Positions 2,383 through 62,309 of a DNA stretch of 64,000 nt are shown here, one piece after another. The notes below the pieces were generated by a model. It was not told where the DNA came from, did not search any database, and saw only the letters and a program-made list of their open reading frames with translations. The DNA lies in assembly GCA_030710605.1 (NCBI GenBank), contig CP092874.1, forward strand, positions 19,377,205-19,441,204. Reading direction: 5' to 3'. Position 1 is the stretch's first letter. Each line of letters starts with the position of its first letter. Made by a program: the position numbers and the translations under genes. The stretch comes from Cordylochernes scorpioides (lineage: Eukaryota > Arthropoda > Arachnida > Pseudoscorpiones > Chernetidae).

Positions 2383-2820
2383 ATTTCATATATATTTATT
2401 TTCAAATAATACACTACATATTTCATATATATTTATTTTATAATACACTGCATATTTCAATATCATTAATATTTAAAATATGTATATAATAATGTGTATA
2501 TAAAAATAGTATTTATCATCAATTTATTATCCTAATACTCCTGTTAAAGGACTGACAAGTCCGAAAGATTGAAAATAAAAATTTGAACAAGAAACTTAAC
2601 CCTGGAAGCTTTATTTATTTTATAATATCATATCTATATTTATTTAAATACACTGCCTGCTTCATATATATTTATTTTTAAATATACACTGTCAGCTCCA
2701 TACATATTTATTTAAATAACTTACACTATATATTTCATGAATATTTTTTTTAAATACACTGCATGCTTCATATATATTTATTTTTTTAAAATACACTGCA
2801 TATTTCATATATGCGCCGCA
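2383..2820. repeat. AT-rich satellite with hammerhead-like block inside
   Basis: Degenerate tandem units of about 35-45 bp contain CATATTTCATATATATTTAT followed by ATACACTG (about 2383-2465 and 2625-2815). The array is split at about 2490-2625 by a block nearly identical to 59140-59320 and, reversed, to 62640-62770. That block carries the motif CTGTTAA, hairpin AGGACT/AGTCC, GAAAGATT at 2541-2570. Confidence 0.7.
2541..2570 (+). ncRNA. Hammerhead-like hairpin, CTGTTGA family (copy a)
   Basis: Core CTGTTAA, then stem II GGACT/AGTCC with a short loop, then GAAA. The short arms on each side (CTC before, GAA after) can form two base pairs of stem I. See the copies at 14184, 15341, 15395, 25097, 27268, 58250, 59230, 62715 and 63733. 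Activity is doubtful because the A6 of the classical CUGAUGA core is replaced. Confidence 0.45.
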
Positions 2821-13665: not shown

Positions 13666-14150
13666 TATAGCAAAATATAAACATAAAAAAAAATACTTTT
13701 TTTTTACAATTTTACAATTCTTTTATTTTCAAAGTGCTATATCCCGCAAGGGATACTTGCGTCAAACAAGGAGAAAAGTTTATTTACATAAGTTATTTAC
13801 ATTATTCAACGCATGAAAACATTAGAGATCCAGATTTTGTAGAAAGTTTAGAATGTATTTACAAAATGTGAATTGAACTATAAATATAATACTTTGCTAA
13901 TAAAATAATAAATACTTTGTTACCATATTGATACAAGGATTTATTCTATTGAACTGTTCAGTGGTTATATTGTTACTTATAATGACACTTTACTAACTTG
14001 TGTGTCTAGTTGATCTATTATGTTAAATTGTTTTGTAGTGTTTAAACACACTAGAAAAATCGCTAAAAACAATATTTACCTTCTATTTTGTATATAGATA
14101 AAGAATTCTTCCTGATTTGAAATTAAACGAAAAAAACATGGTGAAGGAAG
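13666..14150. other. AT-rich DNA, no gene seen
   Basis: Low-complexity sequence with no recognised repeat or coding region. Confidence 0.5.
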
Positions 14151-14183
14151 ACGAGTTTCTTTTATTGATGTATAGGTACAAGC

Positions 14184-14207
14184 TTTCAGGTAAAAACCCT
14201 TCAACAG
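14184..14207 (-). ncRNA. Hammerhead-like hairpin, CTGTTGA family (copy b)
   Basis: On the minus strand: GC, CTGTTGA, A, hairpin GGGT..ACCT, GAAA, GCTT, GT. Stem I is only two pairs (GC/GT). Confidence 0.4.
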
Positions 14208-14825
14208 GCGAGAAATAAAGCGCGACTTATAAGAACTATGGTACAAATGGTAGGAAGGAATATATATATGTCATAATTTGTATAGTTAATGACAAGAGAT
14301 ATAATTTATTTTCGTCAAACTAAGTATGTAAATATGTTACGCTTGTGTTAAAATGTAAATATGTAAATTCATCCATGTATAAAAGCTGGACAAAAAATAA
14401 AGGTGGCAGACATCGCGGGTGCGCTGTTCGCTTGGCATAACGGCTGCGCCTCTTCATTTAGCTACGACATATATATATATATAAAAGGAAAGTTTTTAAA
14501 CTATTTATATATGTTAATATATGTTAAAATTCTAATTTGTGTGTATATGTGACTTAAACTCCTTCGCAATCTTATCTTTTCGGCAGTAATTATTGTTGAA
14601 ATAAAAAGAAATTATAGAGAGCGGTGAAAAAATGGCACAAAAGTGAAATTGTACTGAGATCAGGTGGAACAATTAAGAAAAAGACATCTTCTGGTCGTGC
14701 AACTAAAAAACTTGTTAATGGCTTGCGAAATCTATCGGAATAAATATCAACTAATCATTGATTTTTAATTAGTTCAGAATTGGCCAAATACCCATTCTTG
14801 ATTAATCAAGAAAAGATAACAACGT

Positions 14826-14853
14826 ACGCTTTCGGGCTGTTGGCCCTCATCAG
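14826..14853 (-). ncRNA. Hammerhead ribozyme core (relic)
   Basis: Minus strand: ACG, CTGATGA, stem II GGGC-CAACA-GCCC, GAAA, GCGTA, CGT. The CUGAUGA and GAAA boxes and stem II are intact; the cleavage-site side differs from the copy at 18304 (GCGTA instead of CGCGTC). Stem I ACG/CGT is preserved. The flanking 14715-14825 matches 18335-18440 in reverse, so these are two copies of one element. Confidence 0.6.
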
Positions 14854-14895
14854 CGTGATGCAAAATGTATGTCAACGACCAAAATAATCTAAATA

Positions 14896-15236
14896 CAGTG
14901 GACCCTCGGTTTGCGAGCATAATCCGTTCCAGAGCCATGTTCGTACTCCAAAACGCTCGTAGTGCGAAACTAATTTCTTATTTTTAATAATTGAAACTCG
15001 GGCAATTCTTCTTGCTACGAACAATTGCACAGTTTCCCACATTTTACATATTTCCCGAATCTGATCTGAAGGGAGGGATCCCAGTGAATTTTCATCCATC
15101 ACGATTACGGGCAACCATCACGAGTTGCTCGTAATGCGAAATTTCACTCGTAATCCGAGGTAAAATTTTTCAAAAAATTTTGCTCGTACTGCGAAAAGCT
15201 CGTACTCCAAGGTGCTCGTAAACCGAGGGTCCACTG
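14896..15236 (-). mobile_element. pogo/Tigger-type short transposon with transposase tail
   Basis: Terminal inverted repeats CAGTGGACCCTCGGTTTGCG and CGTAAACCGAGGGTCCACTG with TA on both sides (14894-14895, 15237-15238). The minus strand across 14990-15114 encodes MDENSLGSLPSDQIREICKM followed by WETVQLFV, which resembles the C-terminal tail of pogo/Tigger (CENP-B-related) transposases. The 341-bp length shows that most of the transposase is deleted. Confidence 0.75.
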
Positions 15237-15304
15237 TATATACAATTAGTTTCTATTCATGATATAATTGTGAAAAAAAGTATTAAAATTACAAATATAT
15301 TCTT

Positions 15305-15480
15305 ACAATGAGTATCTTTTTTTATTTAAAAAACGCTAGCTTTCAAGCGTTATTCGCTCTTCAACGGTGGGATAAAGTCGATATTATAGTAAGCCCGTTG
15401 AAGAGCGATTAACACTTGAAAGCTAGCGTTTTTTAAATAAAAAATATACTCATTGTGAGAATATAATCGTAATTTTAATA
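15305..15480. mobile_element. Foldback carrying two hammerhead-like hairpins
   Basis: Arms ATTTAAAAAACGCTAGCTTT (15323) and AAAGCTAGCGTTTTTTAAAT (15419) are inverted. Each arm carries CCGTTGA, A, hairpin GAGCG..CGCTT or GAGCG..CACTT, GAAA, GCTAGC, at 15341-15367 (minus) and 15395-15421 (plus). Confidence 0.75.
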
Positions 15481-15699
15481 CAATTAGTTTATTTTTATCC
15501 CGAAAGATGGCACAAGCCATCAGTAACTTTTAGTTAAACGATCAATTATTTTCTTAATAGAGAGTGGTGTTAACGTGGCTATTTCCAATAGTAGAAATGT
15601 TTATTAACAATCAATCGTAGAGGGTTAGAGAGCGCCATCTGTATTCAAAATTAAGACCTATTTTGCGCGATTATATATTTTTATAATAATGCAATTTCC

Positions 15700-15815
15700 T
15701 ACTTCCCTCACTGCAATACTGAGGCTAAACAGCTTACTATAATATTAAAGATGTATAATGGATTAAACTGGCGAAACCGCTGGGAGGGTTCACCACTGAT
15801 GAGCTAGGTACTTTT
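15700..15815 (+). mobile_element. Fragment of the GAAACCGCTGGGAGGG foldback family
   Basis: Contains TTAAACTGGCGAAACCGCTG, GGAGGGTTCACCACTGATGA and GCTAGG. It lies directly upstream of the LINE end at 15820. The opposite arm is absent. Confidence 0.65.
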
Positions 15816-15825
15816 AATAATATCT

Positions 15826-16180
15826 CGAAAGAGACCTCCTCCGTACCATCAAAACCCAATGCCTGCAGGAATGGAAATCTAATGCTGCACATGAGTGGTA
15901 CAGAGCAGGAGGGACAAGCACCGGTTCTGTCCTCCCAAGAGAACAACAGTCTTTGATTTCCAGACTTAAGTCTGGTCATCTAAGGACAATGACAGAATGG
16001 TTGCAAGGTTTTCTACTATGTACTAAGTGTCAACCTGCAACCCCAAGACATATTATTGACTGTATTGACTCATCCATTGATGAGCTCTACTCTTCCCCGG
16101 CAGACACCATCAACAAGCTTTACAAGCTTGATACCTTAGTGTGATTGAGTGGAGATAAGAAAGAAGAAGGATAATAATAA
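15826..16180 (+). pseudogene. LINE 3' end: RNase H tail and zinc-knuckle-like C-terminus
   Basis: An open frame from about 15826 to 16144 reads through LISRLKSGHLRTMTEWLQGF and then CTKCQPATPRHIIDC, the Cx2C...Hx4C-type terminus of Jockey/I/R1-superclade LINEs, preceded by the R-L-R/K-S-G-H block that ends their RNase H region. It closes before an AT-rich tail (GGATAATAATAATAT). The RT is missing; this is a 5'-truncated insertion. Confidence 0.65.
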
Positions 16181-16750
16181 TATCTAATCGCATTAAAGTC
16201 AGTACGAAATATTTGTATTTGAAAAAAACAAAAAAAAACAATATCTCTATTAATAATTTAACATTTTGAATTTTTTGCCGTTCTATCCGATTAAGAAATG
16301 AATGCTTATATCGTTTTGGAATAAAAAAAAAGGAATGTAAAAATGCTACGACAGGTGATATAACAACATAGAACTAGACTATGCACATTGCCCGATTCCA
16401 TAAATAAACACTAACTAAGAAATGAAGAAGTACCTGCTCGCCGCCCCAAAGTTGCATAAGGCATCCTTATTTACATAGCTAAGAAACATCAACGACAACA
16501 GACTTGTTTATCTCAGCTTCCTATTGGACGATTAGAAGGAAGATATACCTTCCAAAATAGGTGACGTCATCAGAATGTTTAGAAAGTTTCTAATTTGCTC
16601 TTTATTTCTTTCTTCTCTTTTTTTAATTCCCACGGAATATAGAGTTCGCCGGATACGCATTTCGTGGTTGTTGGTCCACACTAATGGCTCAGGCTGAGAC
16701 AATTAGATATTTAAAAAAGCATAGAAGTAGAAGTTGATGTAGAAGCTCTA
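16181..16750. other. Intergenic, no gene seen
   Basis: Moderately AT-rich with no recognised repeat. Confidence 0.45.
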
Positions 16751-16756
16751 AGAGAA

Positions 16757-17040
16757 AACTGACAAAATCTATAACAAGACTTAGAACAAAACACTATAAA
16801 GGAATGACAATACATCCAGATGGCACAAAAACCTATAGGACATGTAACAATTGTCCTGGTGTGGAACTAACACCTACCCACATATTCTCATGCCCAGCAA
16901 TGGCCGCAGCCTTGCAGAAAATTGACATGGACTCAGAACAACAGCTTTACATACCCAAGATAATAGACATTGCTGCTGCTGTGATGGAGATGCATGAAGA
17001 CATCTGAGGCTCTTCATTGGACACGACAACAACAACAAAA
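16757..17040 (+). pseudogene. LINE 3' end (RTCNNCPGVELTPTHIFSC family)
   Basis: An open frame (about 16757-17007) reads LTKSITRLRTKHYKGMTIHP, then RTCNNCPGVELTPTHIFSCP, a Cx2C...Hx4C LINE terminus. It ends EMHEDI, a stop at 17005-17007, GAGGCTCTTCATTGGACACG, and a (CAA)n tail. It is a sibling of the minus-strand copy at 56358-56618, whose last 115 bp have been tandemly amplified. 5' truncated; no RT domain. Confidence 0.7.
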
Positions 17041-17122
17041 AAAACATAACCTCTCGTTGAACTGATATTGTGAAATTGTGATGATTCCTAACAGCTAATT
17101 GACCTGTTTAATCAAAATAAAA

Positions 17123-17345
17123 ATACACTCATAGATAAAACTTATGGAAGTTGTTCTTTTTAACATCTATATCGGGGGATTCAGACAATAGTTCTAAAAG
17201 ATATTATAGTGACCCCTATTTATTGAAGACACCCGAGATAACCAAGTATGAAAAAAATTGTCTCTGTCTCCTTCAAAAAAATAACAGACGACCGGCGGTA
17301 TCAAATTGTGTCCACTTCCACTTAAGTTTTGACCATGAGTGTACA
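17123..17345 (+). mobile_element. MITE, ACACTCATGGACAAAACTT family
   Basis: Ends ATACACTCATAGATAAAACTT and AAGTTTTGACCATGAGTGTA. Interior matches the 9284 copy. Confidence 0.8.
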
Positions 17346-17379
17346 TAAACTTGTTCATCATTTTTTTAAAATAAAGTGA

Positions 17380-17800
17380 TGATAACAATATTTTGTGTGT
17401 ACTGTAATGACAATCGTGACGTGTGCAGACTTCGGAATAGGCTGCCCACAATCCATCGGTGTGATAGAAACACTCCATTGGATATATTGAATATATATGA
17501 TATAAAAATAAAAAAGATTTTCTGCCTGAATTTAGATCATGTTGAGGATTATGGTGATGTAGTCGTGGCAAAAATATTTAAAAGAGTTTTAATTAGTGAT
17601 TTCTTTAATTGAGCTAAGGAATATATATATATAACATAATTTGGTAAAAGTACTGCCTGGCTTAAGGCGTAATAATCTAAAAAATGAAAAACTTATTTAC
17701 ATAATGTACAAAAGATTTGAGCAGGCCAACGGGAAAGAACAACAATGAGTTTTTAAAGGGGAAGCCTGACCTCTGGTGGTCGATTTAACAGAGTATTTGA
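17380..17800 (-). mobile_element. Retroposon-like repeat, TTCCCGTTGGCC family (uninterrupted)
   Basis: On the minus strand: CGACCACCAGAGGTCAGGC (17770s), then TTGTTGTTCTTTCCCGTTGGCC, TTTTGTACATTATGTAAATA, CGCCTTAAGCCAGGCAGTAC, then a region starting GCCACGACTACATCACC shared with 43660-43700. Relatives: 19960-20445, 22800-22985, 43130-43760. Class uncertain; probably a LINE 3' end or its derivative. Confidence 0.6.
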
Positions 17801-18109
17801 ATCTATGAAATTATAATTTTAAATAAAATGATATTTTAATATAACATATATTTGTTTTATTTTTTTAAATTCAATATGGTAAAAATACAAACGCTTGCGT
17901 TGTTCTTTAATGGACGCCACTTGTGGTTTAAAAAGATTTAACCGGCAAGATCATGTGACAATTTGTACATGCAAATCTGTGAATCATCCACCATCCATTT
18001 GTGCACAAGCAACGGCTCTAGAAAGGAAATGAACTGCGCACGCGTTACCAAGATAACGCTAGGAAGTAGGTAAAAGCCGATAAGACAGGCAATAATAAAT
18101 ATAAAAAAG

Positions 18110-18490
18110 TTTCAGTTGCACGATAAGGAGATGCCTTTTTCATAATTTATACACCTTATCCCAGTACAATATCTCATTTGTACTATTTTTTTTCACATTG
18201 TGTCGCGGTCTCACGCAATTCTGGCCTTAACTACCTGTTTCATGATTTTTCAAGATGCCTGAAGGACCAGTTTTTTGGTCGTTGAGGTACAATTTGCACA
18301 ACGCTGATGAGGGCCAACAGCCCGAAACGCGTCCGTGGTTAGCTTTTCTTGATCAATCAAGGATGGGTAATTGGCCAATTCTGGAATAATTAAAAATCAA
18401 CGAGAATAGTTGATATTTATTACGATAGATGGCACAAGCCATCAGCAACTTTCAGTTGCAGGATAAGGAGATGCCTTTTTCATAATAATA
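18110..18490 (+). mobile_element. Hammerhead-bearing element (PLE terminal-repeat-like)
   Basis: Bounded by two copies of TTTCAGTTGCANGATAAGGAGATGCCTTTTTCATAAT (18110-18148 and 18448-18485), a direct repeat pair about 340 bp apart. Between them lie a hammerhead core (18304-18336) and the strand TTTTCTTGATCAATCAAGGA. This layout, terminal direct repeat plus ribozyme, fits a PLE terminal repeat or retrozyme-like unit; the identification is inference. Confidence 0.55.
18296..18340 (+). ncRNA. Hammerhead ribozyme, canonical core
   Basis: Order: ACG (18301-18303), CTGATGA (18304-18310), stem II GGGC-CAACA-GCCC (18311-18323), GAAA (18324-18327), CGCGTC (18328-18333), CGT (18334-18336). ACG/CGT gives three stem I pairs, and ACGCGT is self-complementary, so stem III can form between two copies as known for minimal hammerheads of Penelope-like elements. 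Predicted cleavage follows GUC at 18333. All invariant core bases are present. Confidence 0.7.
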
Positions 18491-18509
18491 AATATAGGTT
18501 ATAAAAATA

Positions 18510-18730
18510 AAGGTTGCCTCTCCCGTCAAAATATACTCTAAAACTAATCGTCATATATTGACCGTCTCCGCAAACTGGTGAATTCAGGTCGTTGACAAAG
18601 CCACAACATCAGTTTTGGAAAACTGAGAAGCGTCCACCTAGAAACAATGGTTTCGGGATAATGGCCCTAGTCAGTTTAGAGCGGACTTTATTATTCTGGT
18701 TTCATGGCTTTGTCACCGATAGGCTATGTA
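18510..18730 (-). mobile_element. Degenerate hammerhead-bearing repeat
   Basis: The interval matches 58450-58640 (shared CCGTCAAAATA, ACTAATCNNCATATATTGAC, TTTCGGGNTAATGG). On the minus strand 18651-18674 reads CTGACTA, GGGCCATTATCCC, GAAAC; core position 8 is mutated. Confidence 0.55.
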
Positions 18731-24890: not shown

Positions 24891-25096
24891 TCATTAGTAA
24901 AGTTTTTTATTAGGATGATGAACAGTGCATCGTTCTGATGCATAATTAAAGGGAGAGGTGCCTTTTTGGGTATATACAAATACGATTCTCCTGCAACTTT
25001 ATGCTGTACATATTTGTATATAAATACTTACTATATTAAATAAAAACAAACGATAGCAATGCGTCTCTTTATACATAAAATTTTTAATATGCTAGC

Positions 25097-25123
25097 TTTC
25101 GGATCTTATCGATCCTTCAACAG
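25097..25123 (-). ncRNA. Hammerhead-like hairpin in PLE 3' region (copy e)
   Basis: Minus strand: GGC, CTGTTGA, A, GGATC-GATAA-GATCC, GAAA, GCTA, GC. Identical to 27268-27294 on the other arm. Confidence 0.5.
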
Positions 25124-25329
25124 GCCAAGCTGTAAATTGAGAGAAAGAATATATATATAAATGTAAAAAATTATTTATATGCACCAACGAAGATAGAGAA
25201 TAAAATATAAAATAAAATAAATATAAACACATTTCACGAGTTCACGTTTTCTCGTGGCCAGGCTGCTGTTGTTTCATCTCTGTCCAAAGCCCAGTTTGTT
25301 TTCTTTTATAGTCAATTGGTCCTTTTATT

Positions 25330-26402
25330 CTAATGGCTGGGCTGTTTTTTGAATGAGTGGTACTGAGATGGTAGTTCTATACGCCTGTTGATACTGTTTA
25401 AATCTTGAGAGACGAAGGATTCTATTAATAATCTTTGATATTTGGATTTGATGTTGTGGTAATGACAGGTTGGGTCGGAAAGGTTAAAGGCATGGCCGGT
25501 TTTAGAGGTATGCTGAAAGATCAAAGATTTGGGATCTTTGTTTATTATATTTCTGTTGTGCTCGGAAATTCTGTTGTAAATGAAACGGCCAGTCTCACCC
25601 ACATATTTAGCGTTGCAATCTTGGCAACCTATGGAGTAAATGGCATATGGTTGCTGGTCGGGACGTTTCTTAATATTAGATTTGGTGATGGGGTTCCGGA
25701 GTATTTGGCCTATTGAGAGGTGGTTGGTAAAAAAGGTTCTTAAACCAAATTTCTTGAGGGAGAGGGCTATTGATTGATTTTCAAAGGAATAAGGTATAAT
25801 ACAGGTGTTACGGTTTACTACGGGCTGAGTGTGTTTGGAAGGGTTGAAACTATGTCTAAGTATGAAGGGAAGTGGATAGCCACTTGCTGTTAGATTACTG
25901 ATGATGGTTGTCTTTTCTAATTTTTTGAAGGCTGGGGTGGAGCAGTGTGTATGTATTCTTTTCGTGAGTGTTCTGACGACTGTGAGTTTGTGGCCTATTG
26001 GGTTATATGAATCAAAAAGGAGATAGGATGGTTTTATGGATTTTTTGTAATAAACTGTTGTGTGGTATGATTCATCAGTTTTGATAAAAAGAATGTCCAA
26101 ATATGGCAAAACTTTGTGGGACTCATGTTCTATTGTGAAAGTGAGGCGTGTATGGTAAGAGTTTAGGGTTTCCAACACCAATAGGACGTCATCCTTGTGA
26201 CATATGCAAAAAATGTCGTCCAGGTACCTTTTCCAAACTTCTATTCGGAGATGTTTCTGTTCCAAAATCCAGCTGTCAATGGCGCTCATGACGAGCTCTG
26301 CCGCAATGTTGGATAAAGGGCTACCCATAGGAGATCCACAGATTTGTTTAAAAAACTGACCTTCGAAGCTGAAGTTAGATGTTGCCAAGCATGATTCAAA
26401 CA
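25330..26402 (-). pseudogene. Penelope-like RT and GIY-YIG endonuclease, 5'-truncated (left copy)
   Basis: About 357 residues of PLE polyprotein are open from 26402 down to the stop at 25330. Visible motifs in order: GSPMGSPLSNIAAELVM (RT motif B), KRYLDDIFCI (catalytic YxDD), LPYLDILF (RT D/E), then a linker, then YAIYSIGCQDCNAKYVGETG with R and EH further on. That is a GIY-YIG nuclease with the CxxC insertion found in PLEs. RT motif A and everything before it are missing. The open frame continues upstream to an ATG at 26490, but those 29 residues are antisense to the right-hand copy, so the frame is a chimera and the ATG is not genuine. Confidence 0.85.
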
Positions 26403-27061
26403 AACTCACAGTCGTCAGAACACTCACGAAAAGAATACATACACATTGCTCCACCCCAGCCTTCAAAAAATTAGAAAAGACAACCATCATCAGTAATCTA
26501 ACAGCAAGTGGCTATCCACTTCCCTTCATACTTAGACATAGTTTCAACCCTTCCAAACACACTCAGCCCGTAGTAAACCGTAACACCTGTATTATACCTT
26601 ATTCCTTTGAAAATCAATCAATAGCCCTCTCCCTCAAGAAATTTGGTTTAAGAACCTTTTTTACCAACCACCTCTCAATAGGCCAAATACTCCGGAACCC
26701 CATCACCAAATCTAATATTAAGAAACGTCCCGACCAGCAACCATATGCCATTTACTCCATAGGTTGCCAAGATTGCAACGCTAAATATGTGGGTGAGACT
26801 GGCCGTTTCATTTACAACAGAATTTCCGAGCACAACAGAAATATAATAAACAAAGATCCCAAATCTTTGATCTTTCAGCATACCTCTAAAACCGGCCATG
26901 CCTTTAACCTTTCCGACCCAACCTGTCATTACCACAACATCAAATCCAAATATCAAAGATTATTAATAGAATCCTTCGTCTCTCAAGATTTAAACAGTAT
27001 CAACAGGCGTATAGAACTACCATCTCAGTACCACTCATTCAAAAAACAGCCCAGCCATTAG
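26403..27061 (+). pseudogene. Penelope-like 3' fragment with GIY-YIG domain (right copy)
   Basis: Starts inside the RT thumb region (KLTVVRTLTKRIHTHCSTPA) and stays open to the stop at 27061, carrying the GIY-YIG domain (YAIYSIGCQDCNAKY, ETGRF, EHNRN). The protein is identical to the corresponding part of the left copy, so the duplication is recent. It lacks the RT catalytic core and cannot act alone. Confidence 0.85.
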
Positions 27062-27267
27062 AATAAAAGGACCAATTGACTATAAAAGAAAACAAACTGA
27101 GCTTTGGACAGAGATGAAACAACCGCAGCCTGGCCACGAGAAAACGTGAACTCGTGAAATGTGTTTATATTTATTTTATTTTATATTTTATTCTCTATCT
27201 TCGTTGGTGCATATAAATATTTTTTTACATTTATATATATATTCTTTCTCTCAATTTACAGCTTGGC

Positions 27268-27294
27268 CTGTTGAAGGATCGATAAGATCCGAAA
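27268..27294 (+). ncRNA. Hammerhead-like hairpin in PLE 3' region (copy f)
   Basis: GGC, CTGTTGA, A, GGATC-GATAA-GATCC, GAAA, GCTA, GC. Five-pair stem II, two-pair stem I. Confidence 0.5.
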
Positions 27295-27359
27295 GCTAGC
27301 ATATTAAAAATTTTATGTATAAAGAGACGCATTGCTATCGTTTGTTTTTATTTAATAAT

Positions 27360-30487: not shown

Positions 30488-32589
30488 TTTCGAAATCTAT
30501 ATTATCGGGGTAAACGGTCTAATAGACAGCTAGTTGATGAAAAAATGTATAAGGAAATACGAAATAAGTATATGAATATTATTGAAAAAACAAGAAATGT
30601 AAGCTGGAGGGTATTCCTGGAGGAAGTTGAAAATACATCTCCTTTTGGTAATACTTACAAAACTTTTAAACAAAAAATTTCTCCTAGGTCTTTTGATTTA
30701 CCAATTCTAGATGTATCTCAAGATGTGCTCGAATCAGAAATGAAAAATCTTTTATCTTCTCTATTTCCGAATGACTGTCAATCTTCTGACACAAACTATC
30801 ATAAATTAATCAGAGACAAGAGTTATACTTTTTCTAATGATAAAATCATTTATTTTGATAATATTCAAATCTGTTCAATAATTAAAAAACTTAAAAATGG
30901 CAAGGCTCCAGGAATAGATCATATAAGCAATCAGATGATCAAAACGGCAGTTCATCATATATCTCCTGTGTTAACAAAATTGTTCAATGCTTGTATGGGA
31001 CTTAATTATTATCCGGAGGCCTGGAGAAAGTCAGCAGTAATGATTATAAAAAACCTAATAAAGAAAATTATAAAGATCCGAAAGCCTACCGCCCTATAAG
31101 CTTGTCTTCTAATTTAGGTAAAATTTTTGAAAGTCTAATTCATATTGAACTTTTAAATCATATTAATAGTAATAATGTTATGCATCCTGCTCAACATGGA
31201 TTTACACAAGAAAAATCAACAATCTCTGCTTTACAAGAAATAACTAAATTAAGTCTTTTGAAAAGAGAAACAGAAAATACGGCAATAGTAACAGTGGACA
31301 TCAGCGGAGCTTTCGACAACGCATGGCATCCGGCAATTCTCCAACAATTGGACAAGGCAAATTTTCCAGCGGTACTTATAAAAATAATTAATTCTTACTT
31401 TGAAGACCGGAGTGTAGAGTTTAAATATACTAATGTAAAGTGTATAAAAAAGATAAATAAGGGATGTCCCCAGGGTGGTATTATTTCTCCTATTCTTTGG
31501 AATATATTACTTAATGATTTCAACTTATCTTTTAACGAAAGTTTTGCTAGAGTGATTGCTTTCGCGGACGATGTGACATTTGTGGTATGGAGTTCAAACA
31601 TCTATGATCTTCAGTATAATATTACCAAATGTTTAATAAAAATCAAAGCATGGTGTGAAAAGGTAAAACTTTCACTAAGTCCAAACAAAACAGGTATACT
31701 CTATCTACATAACTATGAAAAATTGCCCATTAATTTTGATGGAAAAATAATTCAACCATCAGAAACTGTTAAAATTTTGGGAGTTATTTTTAAAAATCAT
31801 AGACAAAGGAATAAGATTAATTTTGGAACACATGTTGACAATATAATTATGAAAGCTACGAAACTTAAGAATATATTATTCTCATTATGTGCACGTACTT
31901 GGGGCATTGATACTCGACGTAGATTGATCTTATATAAAGCTATGATACGCTCTACAATAAGCTATGCATCAAATATTTGGTTTCCTTTTATCACTGCAGC
32001 AAAAAGATCCAAGTTGAATTCTATACAATATCAAATTCTTATTAGATGCATTCATGCTTATAGGACTTCATCTTCTTACATCACACATATACTAGCGAAA
32101 ACCCCTTTACTGTCCGATTATCTTGAATTATTACAAACAAAGTATAATATGACAAATTCTCTCACAGATCGAACACTCAAAAAACCCCTTCAAAAAGAAT
32201 TAAACAAACTATATCTGGATCTAAAATTTAAGTTTTATCTTTCTCAATCTAATGAACTGTTCAAGAAATTCTTTCCAATTGCTGTCCCAAATTTCATTTC
32301 CTCTGATAAATTCACTACATTATTCTTAACTGGCAAAGGACCCTTCTTAAGTTTCCTATTCAAACTGAATGCTATCAATGATCCAACATGTGAATGCCGC
32401 TTAGATGTTGAATCACCAGAGCATCTTCTTTTATCTTGCCCTCTGACTAATCAAATTGTATGTAGATACTTTGAAACATTACCAAATTCTCTTTGTGTAT
32501 ATACTCTATCTTATGAGAACTTTGTTAAGTTTAGAACTATTTGTACAATAATTTACAAAACAATACTAATCCATCGTGTAAATAATTAA
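30488..32589 (+). pseudogene. LINE reverse transcriptase, R1-like, one frameshift
   Basis: The coding sequence covers the linker after the endonuclease, the full RT and the C-terminus. RT motifs: KNGKAPGIDHISNQMIK, YRPISLSSNLGKIFESLI, VDISGAFDNAWHPAIL (motif A), NKGCPQGGIISPILWN (motif B), IAFADDVTFVVW (catalytic FADD), LGVIF. The C-terminus has TCECRLDVESPEHLLLSCPL, the usual CxC...Hx4C knuckle. GCPQG and GAFDNAWxP point to the R1/LOA group rather than Jockey or CR1. One indel in an A-run at about 31047-31053 shifts the frame; the two halves otherwise read without stops (30488-31099 and 31102-32589). No start codon is present because of 5' truncation. This suggests a young copy. Confidence 0.85.
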
Positions 32590-33667: not shown

Positions 33668-34986
33668 CGAGGTGTGTTCAAAAAGTATCGCGAATTTTGG
33701 ATTTTCGCGTGTTACGTATATTCGAATTTCGATCTTTTGTGGCTTTATGTTGGTACTAATGTCTCTCACTTATGCCGACAAGCTCGGCCATTTTGAATGT
33801 TTACTTAATTGTTGACAGCTGCTTTGCTTGCAGGTGTTTTGGATCGTCTTCGATTTTTACCTATTTAAAAAATGGATCAAAGAACCTGTATCAAATTTTG
33901 TGTGAAAAACGAAATTAAGTGCGCGGATGCATTCCGAATGTTGACTGTGGCATACGGAGAAGCTACCTTGAACCGAAGCAACGTTTATCGGTGGTACAAA
34001 ATGTTCTCAGAAGGCCGAGAAGATGTGAACGACGAAGAGCGTGCCGGACGCCCGAGCACTTCAACAACAGACGAAAAAATTAATGAAGTGGAGAAAATGA
34101 TATTTCCCAATCGTCGAATCACCGTTAGAGAAGTTGCTGAGGACCTAAACATATCGATTGGCTCGTGCCATTCGATTTTTATCAATGATTTGGGCATGAG
34201 ACGGGTCGCCGCGAAATTCGTACCAAAATTGCTCAATTGCGACCAAAAACAGCATCGCATGAACATTGCTAATGAGATGTTGGACTCTGTCCGCGACGAC
34301 CCAAATTTGTTCCAGAGGGTCATAACTGGTGACGAAGCGTAGGTTTATGGTTATGACGTGGAAACCAAAGCTCAATCATCTCAATGGAAGCTGCCGCACG
34401 AACCAAGACCGAAAAAAGCGCGCCAAGTTCGGTCGAATGTGAAAGTTTTGCTGACAGTTTTCTTCGATTACAGGGGCGTGGTGCATCATGAGTTCTTGCC
34501 ACAGGGTAGAACGGTCAATAAGGAATATTACCTGCAAGTTATGCGCAATTTGCGCGAACCAATCCGCCAGAAACGCCCGAATTTGTGGAAGAACAAAAAT
34601 TGGATTTTGCACCACGATAACGTCCCTGCTCACACATCGTTGCTTGTGCGCGACCTTTTGGCCAAAAACAACACACTAATGATGCCGCAGCCACCGTATT
34701 TCCCAGATCTGGCCCCCCGTGACTTTTTCTTGTTCCCTAAACTGAAGAGGCCCATGAAAGGACGACGTTACGCTACGCTTGACGAGATAAAGACGGCATC
34801 GAAGGAGGAGCTGAAAAAGATTTTAAAAAATAATTTTTTGAAGTGCTTCGAAGATTGGAAAAACCGTTGGCACAAGTGTATAATATCTCATGGGGATTAC
34901 TTTGAAGGGGACAAAATAGGTATTCATGGATAAATAAATATTTTTGAAAAAACACAAAAGTCGCGATACTTTTTGAACACACCTCG
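33668..34986 (+). mobile_element. mariner transposon, full-length
   Basis: Perfect terminal inverted repeats of 26 bp beginning CGAGGTGTGTTCAAAAAGTA, flanked by TA at 33666-33667 and 34987-34988. Copy B of the duplication has the empty site near 46447. Length 1319 bp is typical for mariner. Confidence 0.95.
33872..34933 (+). pseudogene. mariner transposase, one nonsense codon
   Basis: The DD34D cut-and-paste transposase of mariner elements would be about 353 residues. The N-terminal helix-turn-helix region starts MDQRTCIKFCVKNEIKCADA and includes NRSNVYRWYKMFSEGRE. The three catalytic aspartates are visible in TGDE (about residue 154), HHDNVPAHTS and YFPDLAPRDFFLFP. A TAG at 34340-34342 sits where this family has tryptophan, right after the first catalytic aspartate block. 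The frame before and after is the same, and no other stop or frameshift is seen. The copy therefore looks recently inactivated, or the assembly carries one base error. Confidence 0.95.
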
Positions 34987-46550: not shown

Positions 46551-47260
46551 TATACACTCATGAACAAAACTTAAAAGGAAGTTGTAACTTTTAGCATGTA
46601 TATCGGGATTCAGACAATAACTCTGAAAGTTATTACAGTGACCTTTATTGAAGACACACGAGATAACCAAGTGTATATACACTCATGGACAAAACTTAAG
46701 GTTGTTGTACCTTTTAGCATGTATATCGGGATTCAGACAATAACTCTGAAAGATATTACAGTGACCTTTATTGAAGACACACGAGATAACCAAGTGTATA
46801 TACACTCATGGACAAAACTTAAGGAAGTTGTACCTTTTACCATGTATATCGGGATTCAGACAATAACTCTGAAATATATTACAGTGACCTTTATTGAAGA
46901 CACACGAGATAACCAAGTGTATATACACTCATGGACAAAACTTAAGGTTGTTGTACCTTTTAGCATGTATATCGGGATTCAGACAATAACTCTGAAAGAT
47001 ATTACAGTGACCTTTATTGAAGACACACGAGATAACCAAGTGTATATACACTCATGGACAAAACTTAAGGAAGTTGTACCTTTTACCATGTATATCGGGA
47101 TTCAGACAATAACTCTGAAATATATTACAGTGACCTTTATTGAAGACACACGAGATAACCAAGTGTGAACAACCTATGTCTCCTTCAAAATAACAGACGA
47201 CCGGCGATATCAAAAACTTTCCGCTTCCTTAAATTTTCTCCATGAGTCTATGTACTCATT
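46551..47260 (+). repeat. Tandem array of a MITE left half, 123-bp period
   Basis: Units start at TATACACTCATG 46551, 46676, 46799, 46922 and 47045; the last continues into the MITE right half. Units alternate between two variants (AAGGTTGTTGTACC/AGCATG and AAGGAAGTTGTACC/ACCATG), a 246-bp higher-order pattern. Because 123 is a multiple of three, a frame stays open for 190 codons (46596-47168) with a 41-residue repeat (IGIQTITLK, TFIEDTRDNQVYIHSWTKLK). I regard this as a by-product, not a gene. Confidence 0.9.
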
Positions 47261-53813: not shown

Positions 53814-54505
53814 GTACACTCATGGACCAAACTTGAGTAAGTTGTATCTTTTAGCATGTATATCGGGATTCAGACAATAACTCTGAAAGATATTACAGTG
53901 ACCTTCATTGAAGACACACGAGATAACCAAGTGTATATACACTCATGGACAAACCTTAAGGAAGTTGTACCTTTTAGCATGTATATCGGGATTCAGACAA
54001 TAACTCTGAAAGATATTACAGTGACCTTTATTGAAGACACACGAGATAACCAAGTGTATATACACTCATGGACAAAACTTAAGGAAGCTGTACCTTTTAA
54101 CATGTATATCGGGATTCAGACAATAACTCTGAAATATATTACAGTGACCTTTATTGAAGACACACGAGATAACCAAGTGTATATACACTCATGGACAAAA
54201 CTTGAGTAAGTTGTACCTTTTAACATATATATCGGGATTCAGACAATAACTCTGAAAGATATTACAGTGACCTTTATTGAAGACACACGAGATAACCAAG
54301 TGTATATACACTCATGGACAAAACTTGAGTAAGTTGTACCTTTTAACATGTACATCGGGATTCAGACAATAACTCTGAAAGATATTACAGTGACCTTTAT
54401 TGATGACATTACGAGATAACCAAATATGAAAAAAAATTGTCTGTCTTCTTCTTAAAAAAAAAAGACTTTCCATTCCCTCAAGTTTTTGCCTATGAGTGTA
54501 TAGAG
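53814..54505 (+). repeat. Second tandem array of the MITE left half, 123-bp period
   Basis: TACACTCATGG begins at 53814, 53938, 54061, 54184 and 54307, and the last unit runs into the MITE right end. Same amplification product as 46551-47260 at an independent site. Confidence 0.9.
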
Positions 54506-56658: not shown

Positions 56659-57873
56659 ATGGCAATTGAATTTATAACCATGATATCTTTTGACGTAGTT
56701 AATATGTACCCAAGCCTACCACACCATCTAATAATAGATAACACAATAGAATTTTTAGCATTAAACAATATTCCTCCAGATACTTCTTCTAAAATTATTT
56801 CATTAGTTAAGCTCAGCCTACAATACAACATATTCTCCTTCAATAGTAATTTTTATAAACAAACCAAAGGCTCCCCCATGGGAAGTCCTCTCTCTTCACC
56901 TTTGGCAGAAATAGTAATGAGAAAAATAGATAAAACAATAACCAACCTTTTTCCCACAGATATCATCATCTGGCAGAGATACATAGACGACATCTTTTGT
57001 ATAGCCAACTCTGCCAAAATAGATACCATTTTTACCCAACTAAAGTCCATACATAATGATATTGATTTTACCATAGAAACAGAAAACAATAAGACCTTAC
57101 CATTTCTAGATGTACTTATACTAAAAACACAAAACCAATATACAACAGAAATATACCACAAGCCAAACTCCACTCCAGATTATATACACTTTTCCTCTTA
57201 TTGCCCCCTCAGTCACAAGATCAACACTGTAAAAACCCTCTCAAAACGAATATATACACATTGTTCCACCCAACTCTCAAAAGATACAGAAACCCAATTT
57301 TTGATCAATAAACTCACTTCTAGTGGATATCCGAAAAACTTTATATTAAGACATTTCCATAATCCCTCTCTTATAAGAAATAATCATGTTTATAAATCAA
57401 TATGTATATTCCCCTATTCCCATAGTAGTACCAATATAGCCAGAATTTTAAGCAAACACGGTATAAGAACATACTATGAAAGCAACCCGAGTATAGCAAC
57501 CATAATAAGAAACCCTATTACAAGAAACAGTATTCCTATAACAAAACTATACAATAGCAAAGCAGTATATTCCATACCATGCAACCAATGTAATAATGTA
57601 TATGTAGGTGAAACAGGCAGACATATAAAAGATAGAATAGACGAACATAGAAGAAATATTAAAAACAAAGACCCCAAATCTCTAATAGTACAACATATTA
57701 GAAACACAGATCACGATTTCAACCTAGCAAACCCTAATATTCATTATACAAACATAAGTAGTAAATACAAAAGATTAATACTGGAAGCACTGATTTCTTC
57801 AAAATATAATAGTATAAATAGACACATAGATATCCCGGAGACATATGATAGGCTGGTCCAAATACTAAAATAG
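56659..57873 (+). CDS. Penelope-like RT plus GIY-YIG endonuclease, 5'-truncated
   Basis: A 404-codon open frame that encodes the C-terminal part of a PLE polyprotein. RT motif A is ISFDVVNMYPSLP (about residues 9-21). Motif B is KGSPMGSPLSSPLAEIVM, motif C WQRYIDDIFCI (catalytic YIDD), then LPFLDVLI and the thumb. The endonuclease domain is AVYSIPCNQCNNVYVGETGR with DRIDEHRRN, a GIY-YIG with the CxxC insertion of PLEs. Full PLE proteins are much longer, so the fingers and N-terminal part are missing and the ATG at 56659 is incidental. No stop or frameshift interrupts the rest, which implies a recent insertion. It is clearly diverged from the PLE at 25-27 kb, so two lineages are present. Confidence 0.9.
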   Translation: MAIEFITMISFDVVNMYPSLPHHLIIDNTIEFLALNNIPPDTSSKIISLVKLSLQYNIFSFNSNFYKQTKGSPMGSPLSSPLAEIVMRKIDKTITNLFPTDIIIWQRYIDDIFCIANSAKIDTIFTQLKSIHNDIDFTIETENNKTLPFLDVLILKTQNQYTTEIYHKPNSTPDYIHFSSYCPLSHKINTVKTLSKRIYTHCSTQLSKDTETQFLINKLTSSGYPKNFILRHFHNPSLIRNNHVYKSICIFPYSHSSTNIARILSKHGIRTYYESNPSIATIIRNPITRNSIPITKLYNSKAVYSIPCNQCNNVYVGETGRHIKDRIDEHRRNIKNKDPKSLIVQHIRNTDHDFNLANPNIHYTNISSKYKRLILEALISSKYNSINRHIDIPETYDRLVQILK

Positions 57874-58330
57874 AATTATCCGTTTTCTCTTCATTACACC
57901 ACTTAACAATTTTGCATATAATAATATAAACCAATTAAAAAAAAATTACATAGCAATAATTTTTCTTAAATAATAAAATATAAAACTACATAAATAATCT
58001 TAGATATGCAAAAAATAGCTTATATATATATATGTATAGATAAATATAGGGCATATACTGGATATAAATTATTGGCCAACTAGTATTTCTAGGGGCAACA
58101 CATCTCTTTATCAGGGCTTTTCTTTGATTTAAACTGATTCACGTGGGTATGCGATCCACTCGCGCTGTGCAAGACCAAAGCGAGAAACCATTTAAAGAAA
58201 ATATTTATAACTGTAAATACACGACTACTTAAAATTATATCCATTATTCCTGTAGAAGGGCAGCTTACGCCCGAAAGCTCGAATTTATTCTTCAAATAAA
58301 GAAACTTATCCTTTTTGAATCTTTTCGTTA
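57874..58330 (+). mobile_element. PLE 3' region with hammerhead-like hairpin
   Basis: AT-rich 3' untranslated region. At 58250-58276: ATTC, CTGTAGA, A, GGGC-AGCTTAC-GCCC, GAAA, GCTC, GAAT. Here stem I is four pairs (ATTC/GAAT) and cleavage would follow CUC. The position about 380 nt after the stop mirrors the other two PLE copies. Confidence 0.65.
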
Positions 58331-58449
58331 TTATAATTATACTCTTTGTTCAATAAAATAATTCCTTGTTTTCAATATCAAGGTGGAAATATCAGATTTT
58401 GTCCATTGAGTCGTTCTGGTACTACGGGCATTCTCCTTTGTCAAGAAAG

Positions 58450-58720
58450 GTCACCTCTACCGTCAAAATAGACGCTAAAACTAATCACCATATATTGACC
58501 GTTTCTGCAAACTGGCGGACTCGGGTCAGTGCTACAACATCATCTTTTCCAAATTCAGAAATCCTAATTGGAGACCATGATTTCGGGCTAATGGTCATCG
58601 TCAGTCCAGTGCGATTCCATGAGATCCACGAGGGTTTCGTGAAAGTTTCTGAATTTTTCAAAGAGGTGTTGATCTGGCCAAGTGTCTAGGCTTATTGTAT
58701 GACCGAAGATTTGAGATTTT
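58450..58720 (-). mobile_element. Hammerhead-bearing repeat, CTGACGA family
   Basis: Related to 18510-18730. On the minus strand 58604-58570 reads TGGA, CTGACGA, TGACC-ATTA-GCCC, GAAA, TCATGGTC, TCCA: core CUGANGA and GAAA are intact, stem I is TGGA/TCCA and cleavage would follow GUC, but stem II is largely mispaired. Confidence 0.5.
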
Positions 58721-59139
58721 GTTTCGAGGATGTACCAAAATAGGCCCACAAACTGTTCGTCCTCTATTGGCCTAGTTACTTACCCAGCTAAACACCTTTT
58801 CTTAAATTCTGAATATTTCATAAATCCCTTGGGGATCTCACAAAATAAAGTTTTATACCCTTAGAGAGAATATCAAAACTGAACTTGGTTTTTGTGAATT
58901 TCATAGCTGCATGTTTATAGGTTTTCCTTTTAATACTTTGTTGGTGGTTTCACCGGACAACAGAAGCTATAGGCTTCGTGTATATGACAAATAGGCCGTG
59001 GTAAAATATACTTCCAAGGTCAGCAAGACCAAGTTGTAATCCGTTTAGTGTTAAATAGGGTTATGGAAGCGGAATAATAGTATTTATGTAAATATGTATA
59101 CACACATAAGTATCTACCTATTTCAGTATAAGATCTCCT

Positions 59140-59325
59140 CCTTTCAATATAATTAATATTTAAATATGTAAAAATTAATTTGTATATAAAAATAGTATTA
59201 TATATCATCAATTTAATATTGTGATACTCCTGTTGAAGGATTGACAAGTCCGAAAGCTTGAAAATAAAAATTTGAACAAGAAACTTAACCCTGGAAGCTT
59301 TATTTATTTTATAATAGTATAAGAG
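59140..59325 (+). mobile_element. CTGTTGA-family block (copy i)
   Basis: The motif CTC, CTGTTGA, A, GGATT-GACA-AGTCC, GAAA, GCTT, GAA lies at 59227-59262, followed by AACAAGAAACTTAACCCTGG. The block is almost the same as 2490-2640. Confidence 0.65.
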
Positions 59326-59544
59326 TGTAAGTGAAAAATCCAAATGGGATACATCAAAATTCGAAGTGTCATAATTGTGAACATCATTTGGTTTGGAAGT
59401 TTCATTTGTTGGTTGGGAAGTTTGTTTGTGGAAAATATATATATGACTACATCAACCAGTTTTTTTTATTTAGTTCTTGATGTTTCAGTGACTCACCTGT
59501 CACTTTCCTCAGGCGAATGATTTTTTCTGAATTCCAATCTTTTA

Positions 59545-59935
59545 CTTTTTTATGATGCATTAGCGCGCCATCTGTTATAAAAAAAAATTAACTACTTTTG
59601 GACGCTTATGATTCTTTTCGAAATAAAACAATTTTCTACTTCCCTTACTGCAATGATAAAATAATGGGAGGTTTCGGGTTCATCATCTGGGAGGGTTCAC
59701 TACTGATAAGCCAGGCCCTCCCATTATTTTATCATTGCAGTAAGAGCAGCATAAAATTGTTTTATTTCGAAAAGAATCATAAGCGTCAAGAAGTATTTTA
59801 ATTTTTTTTATAATTGTTTTGGTTTAGCACTTGTGTGAGATAAAATTTTCTACAGCATATCAATGGAAGTAATAGGGAAAAATATTGGAAGGGCCTGGCT
59901 CATCATTGGTGAACCCTCCCTTCAGTTTCGTCAGT
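59545..59935. mobile_element. Foldback of the GAAACCGCTGGGAGGG family plus a decayed arm
   Basis: Inverted arms TTCGAAATAAAACAATTTTC (59618) and AAAATTGTTTTATTTCGAAA (59751). The GCATTAGCGCGCCATCTGTT edge matches 20509 and 29510. A second partial arm at 59850-59935 has GGGCCTGGCTCATCATTGGT. Confidence 0.75.
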
Positions 59936-60270
59936 TTCAATAAATGAACCTATTGTATCTCGATTTTTTTTTTTTGACAAAAATAAAACATTTACTTACT
60001 ACTAGTTCGTCAATTTAAAACAAGGTAATTATTTTAGAATAATAATTGAGCGCCTAAAATATTTCCAATTTTGGGATATTTATGGCGCTATTATGTTTAG
60101 GACTAAGCAAGTGGTAAAACGGCAAGTTACCGCCAATCGATTTGATGAGGTGTGGGTGTCATGTAGTAAGTAGTCTGCTATATACAAATTGATTTGCATA
60201 GCGAGGGGGGAAATATGCAAATTGTATTTAAAAAAAAAAAACATCTACCCTTTATCTTTATAATTTTAAT

Positions 60271-60575
60271 TGGGGGGACGGTGGAAGGCTGGTTAAACCG
60301 TTTGGTTTTCGACCACTAGGACCCGAGTTCTATTCCCGTATTGGACACTTTTTTATGATTTAAAAAAAAATGCTCCAATGGCCCCCGATTCTTGCAAAAG
60401 TCCAACCCCACCAGCGAGTGCAAGTAACCAAACGGGGCTCATTTTTAAGTGCAAAGTCGAACTGCTTTTCACATGTGTAGACATGTGGTGCGCTTACAGT
60501 AAAAGCAGTCGCTAACTACCCACCATGATTATCATGGCCTGTACCACGTGTACTAGGGATAATAAAAATAAATAA
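60271..60575 (+). mobile_element. tRNA-derived SINE, nearly complete
   Basis: Head GGTGGAAGGCTGGTTAAACC, body CCCCACCAGCGAGTGCAAGT and AACCAAACGGGGCTC, 3' part CTACCCACCATGATTATCAT, tail GGGATAATAAAAATAAATAA. The longest copy in the window; good reference for the family. Confidence 0.85.
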
Positions 60576-60884
60576 ATAATAATTTTAATTGCCATTCACA
60601 TAATTCAACTTGAATCATGAACAATTTCACAACACGTTTGTAAAGGATTTTTCTTTTTAGCCCAATTTCTATTAGTGTTCGATATGCAGATTGATTTGCA
60701 TAACGAGGGGGATTATATGCAAATTGTCGCTATATGATAGCCACCGTATCGTCCAATCATTAATAACTACGTCGGCACTTAATAACATTTTGACTTTAGA
60801 GTTCCTTGGGTTTCTCTTAGTCGCTGACTGATCTTTCTTTTGATCTACAAATTCAACATAGTTAAAATTTCAAAACAACAAAAA

Positions 60885-61065
60885 GCCTTTATTCAGGGTC
60901 ACTGACCCTATACAGGATTCACCAGAGGTATGCATAAGAACAAAGCAGTGAGACAAAGAAAATAACGATATATACAGAAGAAAAGGGAAAAAAAAAACAA
61001 GAAAAAAAAACAAGAAAGAGAAAGAGGGAAGCAAGAAAAACAACACAAAAAGAGTACAGTTAAAA
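60885..61065 (-). mobile_element. LINE-like 3' end: hairpin plus AATAAAGG
   Basis: Minus strand: CTGTATAGGGTCAGTGACCC then TGAATAAAGGC and an A/T-rich end. The hairpin GGGTC/GACCC differs in sequence from GACC/GGTC at 21230 but keeps pairing. Confidence 0.5.
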
Positions 61066-61093
61066 TTTCTTTAATTCATTTTTCATAAATAAA

Positions 61094-61249
61094 ATGGCCA
61101 AGCGCACCAAGAAAGTTGGAATCGTTGGAAAGTACGGCACTAGGTATGGTGATTCTCTGAGAAAAATGATCGAGAAGATTTCCCAGCACAAAAAAAAAAA
61201 TACACCTGCAGCTTTTGCGGGAAGAATACCCTGAAGAGGAAGTGTGACA
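61094..61249 (+). pseudogene. RpL37A: Ribosomal protein eL43 (RPL37A) retrocopy, broken
   Basis: Begins [40 protein letters not shown], then SLRKM and ISQH. This is the start of the 60S subunit zinc-ribbon protein eL43/RPL37A (92 residues in animals). An expanded A-run at 61189-61200 shifts the frame; past it YTCSFCGK resumes in another frame, the first zinc CxxC pair. The copy ends at about residue 57, where another retrocopy's 3' end abuts. No intron interrupts it, so it is a processed pseudogene. Codon use is GC-richer than the surroundings, as expected for a recent copy of an expressed gene. Confidence 0.85.
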
Positions 61250-61590
61250 ATTGACAATTAAAACAGCTTTATTGACGTCTTGTCAATATCTATACACTCA
61301 AGGAGAGTTATAATAGTAAAATTAATTAGATTTAAAATAAAGAGAAAATATTTACAACAGACGGAGCCTTCTCTGAAGGGACATCTGAATCTTATCAGGA
61401 GTTTAAAGCCTTTATGAGTTTAAACAGGCTCCTGCCAGTCGTGGAGTCCCCAATATGCTCGATGACAGACTTGAGGACAAGAAAATTTTCAGGCAAGAGT
61501 ATAAGATCATCCCTATTAAAGTCTTAATAGATTGCAAGTATGATATCCTCTCTGGTTGTATTACCCTCATACAGGGGGCTCAGGAGAGTT
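61249..61590 (-). mobile_element. 5'-truncated retrocopy, TTGTCA 3' end (longest readable)
   Basis: The minus frame reads DDLILLPENFLVLKSVIEHI then GDSTTGRSLFKLIKALNS and a stop, followed by TGACAAGACGTCAATAAAGC and TTTTAATTGTCAATTGTCA. The conserved ending GDSxTxxS-K is shared with 45613 and 51876. I do not recognise the protein. Confidence 0.55.
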
Positions 61591-62100
61591 GTATCGTTCA
61601 GTTGGTGGAATATTTAGGATAGCTGCTGATGGGAAAGCTTGTTCTTAGAGGTATGGGTCGAAGACGAAGTGTGTTGGAATCTCGCATTGTCGTACCTGCA
61701 CCAAGACTGTCTCTGGTGATGTCCCAATCACCTCCCACTCTGTCAGGAGCGCCATCAGGAGGGAAATACAGTAATCCTGTACTCACGTGGATGATATGTT
61801 TCACGCACACAAGTTATATAAGATTTTAGTAATATTTGTTTAATTCAAGAAATGCTAGATTGTGTGTAGAGTTAAATGGAGGACTGGACACGGATTTAAT
61901 TATTCTTTATTTTATGTAAGCATCCCTTTTTTTAACACTTTAAAAATAAAGCTATAATAAATATAAAACTTTTTTTAAATTTTAAATAGATATAAAAGAC
62001 TCTAAATATACATAAACAAATATATATAAACTCTTAGATAAATATATATGTTTAAATCCATAATAAATAACATTTATATACATACTTTCAATTTGTATAT
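61591..62100. other. No gene seen
   Basis: 61630-61800 is less AT-rich with both strands open for about 65 codons, but no recognisable motif; the rest is low complexity. Confidence 0.45.
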
Positions 62101-62104
62101 TTGA

Positions 62105-62305
62105 TGGGCAAAACTTAAGTGGAAAGTCGTTGATATCTACCTTCGTCTATATATATATTTTTTTTGAAGGAGACAGAGGCAATTTTGTTCACATTTGGTT
62201 ATCTCATGTGTCTTCAATAAAGGTCACTGTAATATCTTTCAGAATTATTGTCCAGATATATATGCTAAAAGATACAACTTCTTCAAGTTTTGTCCATGAG
62301 TGTTT
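62105..62305 (-). mobile_element. MITE, ACACTCATGGACAAAACTT family (reverse)
   Basis: GGGCAAAACTTAAGTGGAAA on the left, TTCAAGTTTTGTCCATGAGTG on the right; interior GTCTTCAATAAAGGTCACTG. Confidence 0.75.
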
Positions 62306-62309
62306 TTTT

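Follow-up and report, generated by a model that had tools for sequence, protein, structure and literature searches.

The window, by which we mean the whole 64,000-nucleotide stretch of the Cordylochernes scorpioides genome that was analysed, contains coding pieces from two lineages of Penelope-like elements (PLEs):

25333-26511, minus strand: PLE coding piece of 393 amino acids, with reverse transcriptase (RT) and GIY-YIG
26360-27061, plus strand: shorter PLE coding piece of 233 amino acids, head-to-head with the piece at 25333-26511 (95.7% identity over 233 amino acids)
56659-57873, plus strand: second PLE lineage, 404 amino acids, with RT and GIY-YIG (48.6% identity to the first PLE over 350 amino acids)

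Pfam searches found RVT_1 and GIY-YIG in both PLE proteins searched, the RVT_1 match of the first protein scoring 26.6, under the cut-off of 29.6. RT and GIY-YIG lie in one frame and copies are arranged in tandem or head-to-head, as is characteristic of PLEs. Elsewhere, the window holds a Group 7 allergen domain (PF16984) at 1768-2385 on the minus strand, suggestive of an arthropod host, another reverse transcriptase (RVT_1) at 31006-32586 and a Mos1-like mariner transposase in two frames at 33869-34933, both on the plus strand, and open frames of a repeated peptide unit (DTRDNQVYIHSWTKL) at 46575-47168 and 53841-54209.

A short motif follows the three PLE stop codons (25330, 27061 and 57873) after 206, 206 and 376 nucleotides, respectively, which bears out the PLE linkage claimed in a preliminary description of this DNA. 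All ten motif places given there were recovered:

25091-25125 (place 25123-25097), minus strand: U6 motif at the left end of the head-to-head PLE pair; stem I GC/GC, CTGTTGA, inserted A, stem II GGATC/GATCC, GAAA, AGCT, A17
27266-27300 (place 27268-27294), plus strand: U6 motif at the right end of the head-to-head PLE pair, of the same type as copy 25097
58246-58284 (place 58250-58276), plus strand: U6 motif 376 nucleotides past the PLE stop; stem I of 4 bp, stem II GGGC/GCCC, C17
59228-59261 (place 59230-59255), plus strand: U6 motif of the GGATTGACAAGTCC type, U17
63730-63765 (place 63733-63758), plus strand: U6 motif within a palindrome at 63686-63801
14178-14209 (place 14207-14184), minus strand: U6 motif of the GGGTTTTTACCT type, close to the PLE-linked copies of loci L004, L022, L025 and L031
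15335-15367 (place 15367-15341), minus strand: U6 motif with U4C (CCGTTGA), left arm of an inverted pair
15395-15427 (place 15395-15421), plus strand: U6 motif with U4C (CCGTTGA), right arm of the inverted pair
2541-2569, plus strand: decayed-looking copy with CTGTTAA (G8A) and GAAAGAT
62712-62740 (place 62740-62715), minus strand: decayed-looking copy with CTGTTAA (G8A)

The U6 motif consists, in order, of stem I, CUGUNGA, one extra A, stem II, GAAA, AGCU and H at position 17. Copies 25097 and 27294 are not independent, being the two ends of one head-to-head element. U stands in place of the core A6 in 10 of the 10 copies, as had been claimed. The core strings proposed for the two halves are less general: CTGTTGA or CTGTAGA (CTGTWGA) occurs in six copies, with CCGTTGA in two and CTGTTAA in two, and the 3' half proposed as GAAA-GCTN reads GAAAGCT in nine copies and GAAAGAT in copy 2541. 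A relaxed pattern (C[ACT]G[AT]NGA..GAAAGCT) is found eight times in the window, whereas 60 first-order Markov simulations gave it 0.017 times on average and once at most. Hammerhead motifs with A6 and without the extra nucleotide, partly decayed, also lie in the window, although the preliminary description is silent on them, at 18304-18327 (plus strand), 14853-14830 and 58604-58581 (both minus strand).

At the gathering threshold, Rfam returned one tRNA and no hammerhead from the window, and its hammerhead models matched none of seven U6 copies at E values up to 10 (regions 57,800-64,000 and 14,000-18,600). This is a weak test: the no-insert copies 14853 and 58604 went unmatched too, and copy 18304 reached 19.3 bits where the threshold is 52, the HH9 match at 18286-18356 thereby staying below it.

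Stems were analysed in 104 families, less than 85% identical to one another over about 60 nucleotides and collected with patterns in which GAAAGCT was fixed. All fetched loci are on contig C1, and eight of them, fetched purposely for G17, supply all seven G17 among the U6 families; copies lying within 40 nucleotides of the end of a locus were left out, as were identical contexts, and site L064 counts in both of two registers. The hammerhead rule that stem II directly follows A9 is broken by one extra nucleotide on the 5' side: in this register a stem II of at least 3 bp forms in 74 of the 104 families, versus 15 of the 104 without the extra nucleotide, and the register without insertion was rejected. 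In stem I, pair 2.1:1.1 is present in 86 of the 104 families (shuffled mean 69.4) and pair 2.2:1.2 in 77 (shuffled mean 42.5, maximum 57).

The covariation of stems I and II that the preliminary description had reported was checked in 41 families of equal length and is upheld. The covariation score is 0.425, versus 0.263 ± 0.021 in shuffled data (reached by 0 of 500 shuffles), slid pairings give at most 0.193, and cells changed on both sides number 33 versus 14.2 ± 2.9 (0 of 500 shuffles as high). Unexceptional in the same families are the number of pairs with both sides changed (6 versus 5.0 shuffled, with 162 of 500 shuffles as high) and of further pair types (16 versus 14.1, with 83 of 500 as high), making three of five measures that lie beyond all 500 shuffles and two that do not. 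The palindromic AGCT that had been noted is likewise present in place of stem III. This stem III consists of AGCU only, without a loop, and is possible between two copies, not within one; in two-copy cofolding, the AGCU dimer was not seen for U6 copies.

The genome (2.62 Gb in 24 contigs) was searched with patterns, of which the counts are lower bounds, very common words being skipped; reversed patterns served as controls. At least 69,948 matches have U6 (CTGTNGA..GAAAGCTH, control 438), versus at least 18,031 with A6 (CTGANGA..GAAAGCTH, control 200), breaking the U4-G5-A6 U-turn rule of the hammerhead at A6. C6 and G6 together account for at least 3,556 (CTGSNGA..GAAAGCTH, control 343), but many of the listed rows are two or three unrelated repeats, and since these repeat few short sequences without a plausible stem II, true C6 and G6 copies must be rarer. 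Position 6 is A or U, not free.

The changed letter U6 almost never occurs without the added nucleotide between A9 and stem II, and this extra nucleotide, given no weight in the preliminary description although listed there, is the telling feature of the lineage. With patterns of equal specification, at least 36,255 copies have U6 and the insertion (control 1), at least 212 have U6 without it (control 7), at least 5,443 have A6 and the insertion (control 4) and at least 21,550 have A6 without it (control 3). The insertion is carried by 99.4% of the U6 copies versus 20.2% of the A6 copies, and U6 makes up about 1% of the no-insert copies; the odds ratio of about 700 is per copy, counting copies and not events, and common descent contributes to it. 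The replacement of A6, around which the preliminary description was built, is indeed kept and is not random decay, but A6 also occurs within the lineage, in about 13% of the insertion-bearing copies. What is listed for each pattern is its first 100 places, which lie for the most part on contig C1 and do not form a random sample. Among them, U6 rows without insertion look like scattered mutants of CCATGG, CGCG and AGCU families and form no more than small groups, and five of the A6 rows with insertion look, by hand count, like no-insert copies read in another register. In IMG/VR, the U6 pattern with insertion matched no stretches and the no-insert pattern matched two.

At the inserted position (9a), 68 of 69 U6 families have A and one has U, whereas 26 of 32 A6 families have A and six have U (L064, L074, L122, L126, L134 and L135), a difference with a Fisher p of 0.004 when families are treated as independent, which may not hold. 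Judging from this sequence pattern, a contact between positions 6 and 9a is possible.

Because the 104 families had been found with a fixed core, sampling was redone with one half of it left free. With the 5' half free there were 38,176 matches (control 30), and in the first 100 listed the core reads C3 in 93, U4 in 89 (C in 7, A in 4), G5 in 93, U6 in 97 (A in 3), G8 in 90, A9 in 97 and A at 9a in 94. Position 7 is A in 45, T in 39, C in 11 and G in 5 of these, and position 17 is T in 69, C in 17, A in 14 and G in none. As in hammerheads, C3, G5, G8 and A9 are conserved and N7 is variable; U6 is as conserved as C3, G5 and A9. A second sample with the 5' half free (2,162 matches, control 0) contained amplified families with CCGTCGA and CAGTAGA, in which U4 is changed too; position 4 is relaxed in the lineage.

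Leaving the 3' half free gave 568 matches (control 0), with 38 distinct strings in the 100 listed, 24 of which have GAAAGCT whole. The hammerhead 3' core is kept in these first 100, with G12 in 95, A13 in 98, A14 in 99, A15.1 in 97 and U16.1 in 97. The inner G and C of AGCU, free in this sample, stand in 95 and 94, from few families; AGCU seems nearly invariant, which a bare dimer contact would not demand. GAAAGCT is whole in 85 of the 100, none of them with G17, and both rows that do have G17 have A15.1 changed as well. Genome-wide, CTGTNGA..GAAAGCT is followed by H17 in at least 69,948 places versus G17 in at least 997 (1.4% G), the reversed-pattern controls giving 438 H and 65 G (65 of 503, 12.9%), so the hammerhead rule of H and not G at the cleavage position is followed. 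Designed hammerheads with G at position 17 did not cleave, according to the available text of PMC4191386, and the H17 bias therefore looks like a catalytic rule rather than one of a plain stem-loop.

Among PLE rows for which a motif is listed, in elements with U6 and in those with A6 and the insertion, the motif lies 119-451 nucleotides downstream of the protein, counted from the end of the protein alignment and not from the stop codon; one PLE piece of L031 has no motif within 900 nucleotides. A tandem PLE at L060/L061 has the motif between ORF pieces, recurring 2,709 bp on; its frames are interrupted (pieces of 169 and 291 amino acids), and the L060 motif at 1501-1529 lies between a stop at 1284 and an ATG at 1649. 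The head-to-head form of copies 25097 and 27294 recurs in the first 100 U6 places listed, where 14 of 17 neighbouring pairs less than 4 kb apart are in minus-then-plus orientation. An AATAAA is found within 40 nucleotides past H17 in 66 of the 104 families (shuffled mean 9.8), and in three multicopy families the copies diverge only 54-59 nucleotides beyond H17. As integrated copies extend this far, their template was not cut at H17.

PLE hammerheads are already known and, in the available text of PMC7761336, may cleave as dimers; the core with U6 and insertion would be a variant of them. The minimal PLE-associated hammerheads of Cervera and de la Pena (2014) and of Lunse, Weinberg and Breaker (2017), thought to be dimeric in the available portions of later papers (PMC7761336, PMC6155905, PMC6466107), are alike in lying in PLEs, in having a reduced or palindromic sequence where stem III would be, in being type I and in their tandem arrangement. 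Compared with those later descriptions, the present lineage differs in U6, the extra nucleotide after A9 and the relaxed U4. The PAc Poseidon element of Anolis likewise carries, in a tandem array, a PLE hammerhead close to the start of the ORF, which cleaves only with the PLE protein and is dispensable for insertion in vitro; unlike here, it has the usual C3 and G8, and the available text mentions neither U6 nor an insertion (PMC11167929). The no-insert A6 families belong to the same genome, and one of them (L139) lies at the same locus as a PLE reverse transcriptase of the same kind, 44-49% identical to the window PLEs, but they differ from the U6 lineage in having A6, no insertion and a stem III of CCATGG, CGCG and similar.

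A natural change at position 6 is also found in the A6C hammerhead of phage Bcep176 (PMC3088659, PMC7151607). That is one natural example, with C6 and favoured by Mn2+, for which the available text mentions no insertion after A9, whereas U6 occurs here in many families and nearly always with the insertion. In the accessible parts of the mutant work, A6C cripples cleavage in Mg2+ (PMC7151607), with 0.18 per min in Mn2+ versus 3.55e-6 in Mg2+ at 300 µM for a mouse-gut A6C hammerhead (PMC7151607), a natural A6C hammerhead has a kobs below 0.1 per min (PMC3088659), and the CUGA turn is not rescued by up to two substitutions, a C-G swap excepted (PMC9901934). These data make U6 alone unlikely to work well; no insertion after A9 was found in the same accessible parts. 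A literature search for an A6U hammerhead ribozyme found none, two primary PLE hammerhead papers being beyond its reach. A CUGUAGA in the discussion of PMC4191386 was set aside as an apparent slip, the results section available there printing CUGAUGA, as were core strings in the available text of other hammerhead papers, which belong to a target site, a substrate RNA and an aptamer.

We think it probable that the motif marks a PLE hammerhead lineage, probably dimer-acting, with a core re-tuned by an insertion that tolerates the loss of A6; this reading draws on sequence, copy number, covariation, the H17 rule, PLE linkage and the near-absence of U6 without insertion. The hammerhead architecture noted in the preliminary description agrees with the core, the H17 rule and the covariation of stems I and II. 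The motif would be a hammerhead-derived self-cleaving RNA of PLEs in type I arrangement, with an open stem I and with stem III reduced to the palindrome AGCU. Because AGCU lacks a loop and cannot fold into a hairpin by itself, two copies, in tandem units or in two transcripts, would pair through it; paired copies would cut each other after H17, which would release unit-length PLE RNA, and cleavage may depend on metal or protein. With one nucleotide, nearly always A, placed between A9 and stem II in the lineage, A6, the U-turn purine, could have become U on this background, the insertion functionally compensating for the change, and U4 would drift as well. Several observations speak against this reading: the missing Rfam matches for the seven U6 copies searched, the two unexceptional covariation measures, the crippled A6C and unrescued CUGA mutants, a PAc hammerhead that needs the PLE protein and is dispensable for insertion in vitro, the integrated copies that extend beyond H17, an odds ratio swollen by common descent, and the near-invariance of AGCU.

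The motif may instead have lost catalysis and survive as a rod-like hairpin that the PLE protein recognises close to where reverse transcription starts. With the insertion, G5-C16.2 and U6·G15.2 could pair, leaving a symmetric 4 × 4 loop of N7-G8-A9-A9a and G12-A13-A14-A15.1, and the minimum-energy folds of two window copies do pair G5 and U6 with the AGC strand. Such a role would also suit an AGCU that seems nearly invariant while stems I and II vary, a tail with AATAAA that is retained in integrated copies, and PAc hammerhead mutants which, in the available text, are without effect on insertion in vitro (PMC11167929). Nevertheless, with G15.2 as partner C6 would make a better pair than U6, yet it is scarce even when counted together with G6; G17 would be allowed, but is rare; and A6 with the insertion is common. 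We regard the loss of catalysis as improbable. Of the two alternatives offered previously, a ribozyme with a changed core and a structure kept for another purpose, the first is favoured by the H17 rule, by a position 7 that varies freely and by the rarity of C6.

That ordinary PLE hammerheads are simply decaying, with U6 a mutated remnant spread by chance, would account for the decayed copies 2541 and 62715 and is otherwise very hard to credit. U6 is nearly fixed in the listed rows with the 5' half free, it occurs in 69 distinct sampled families (a number that counts as such and not as a share, position 6 having been preset by the patterns) and in amplified near-identical families, it lies beside PLE frames open over 393 and 404 amino acids, and it is nearly absent from no-insert copies. 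On the U6 families and the free-half samples, plain decay was rejected. The preliminary description had allowed for intact A6 as the norm; A6 turns out to form a separate no-insert class and a minority of the insertion class, and the U6 copies are not simply decayed. A different question is whether the link between insertion and U6 reflects pure common descent from a founder with both changes and no compensation, which would be compatible with the other steps of the re-tuned hammerhead explanation. The per-copy counts are uncorrected for descent, and a PLE tree of 12 rows is weakly supported, with strong support on only one of eight inner branches. In this tree, however, elements with A6 and insertion interleave with those with U6 and insertion, the U6 label needing 3 changes against a shuffled mean of 3.5 (195 of 500 shuffles as low), and sequence relationships of this kind suggest repeated switching between A6 and U6; moreover, the U6 rows without insertion in the first 100 listed come in small groups only. 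Descent without compensation is unlikely in our judgement, while carrying real weight.

The re-tuned core could be a second natural solution of the hammerhead active site, in which a nucleotide inserted beside the A9-G12 pair makes A6, and in part U4, dispensable, and which PLEs have long used; we put this forward tentatively, with doubt slightly outweighing belief. If true, it would amount to a natural double-mutant cycle beyond the reach of substitution-only mutagenesis. A6 belongs to the supposedly invariant core of a ribozyme that ranks among the best studied. One genome in which U6 copies with the insertion number in the tens of thousands, next to more than 21,000 no-insert A6 copies, offers a ready test of how a catalytic RNA core can be rebuilt via an indel, and the insertion motif provides a pattern with which to look for copies that went unmatched by the Rfam hammerhead models here.

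Outside the window, some motif pairs are arranged head to head so closely that only about 30-50 nucleotides separate their starts, and they comprise little more than the motif and its tail. Sequences like a 3' splice site lie between the motif and the next ORF at about 1580-1595 of L060 (TTATTAACTTTCAG) and between the motif and what follows at about 1574-1590 of L001 (TTTGAATCTTACAG); by their sequence, they perhaps belong to a 5'-UTR intron.
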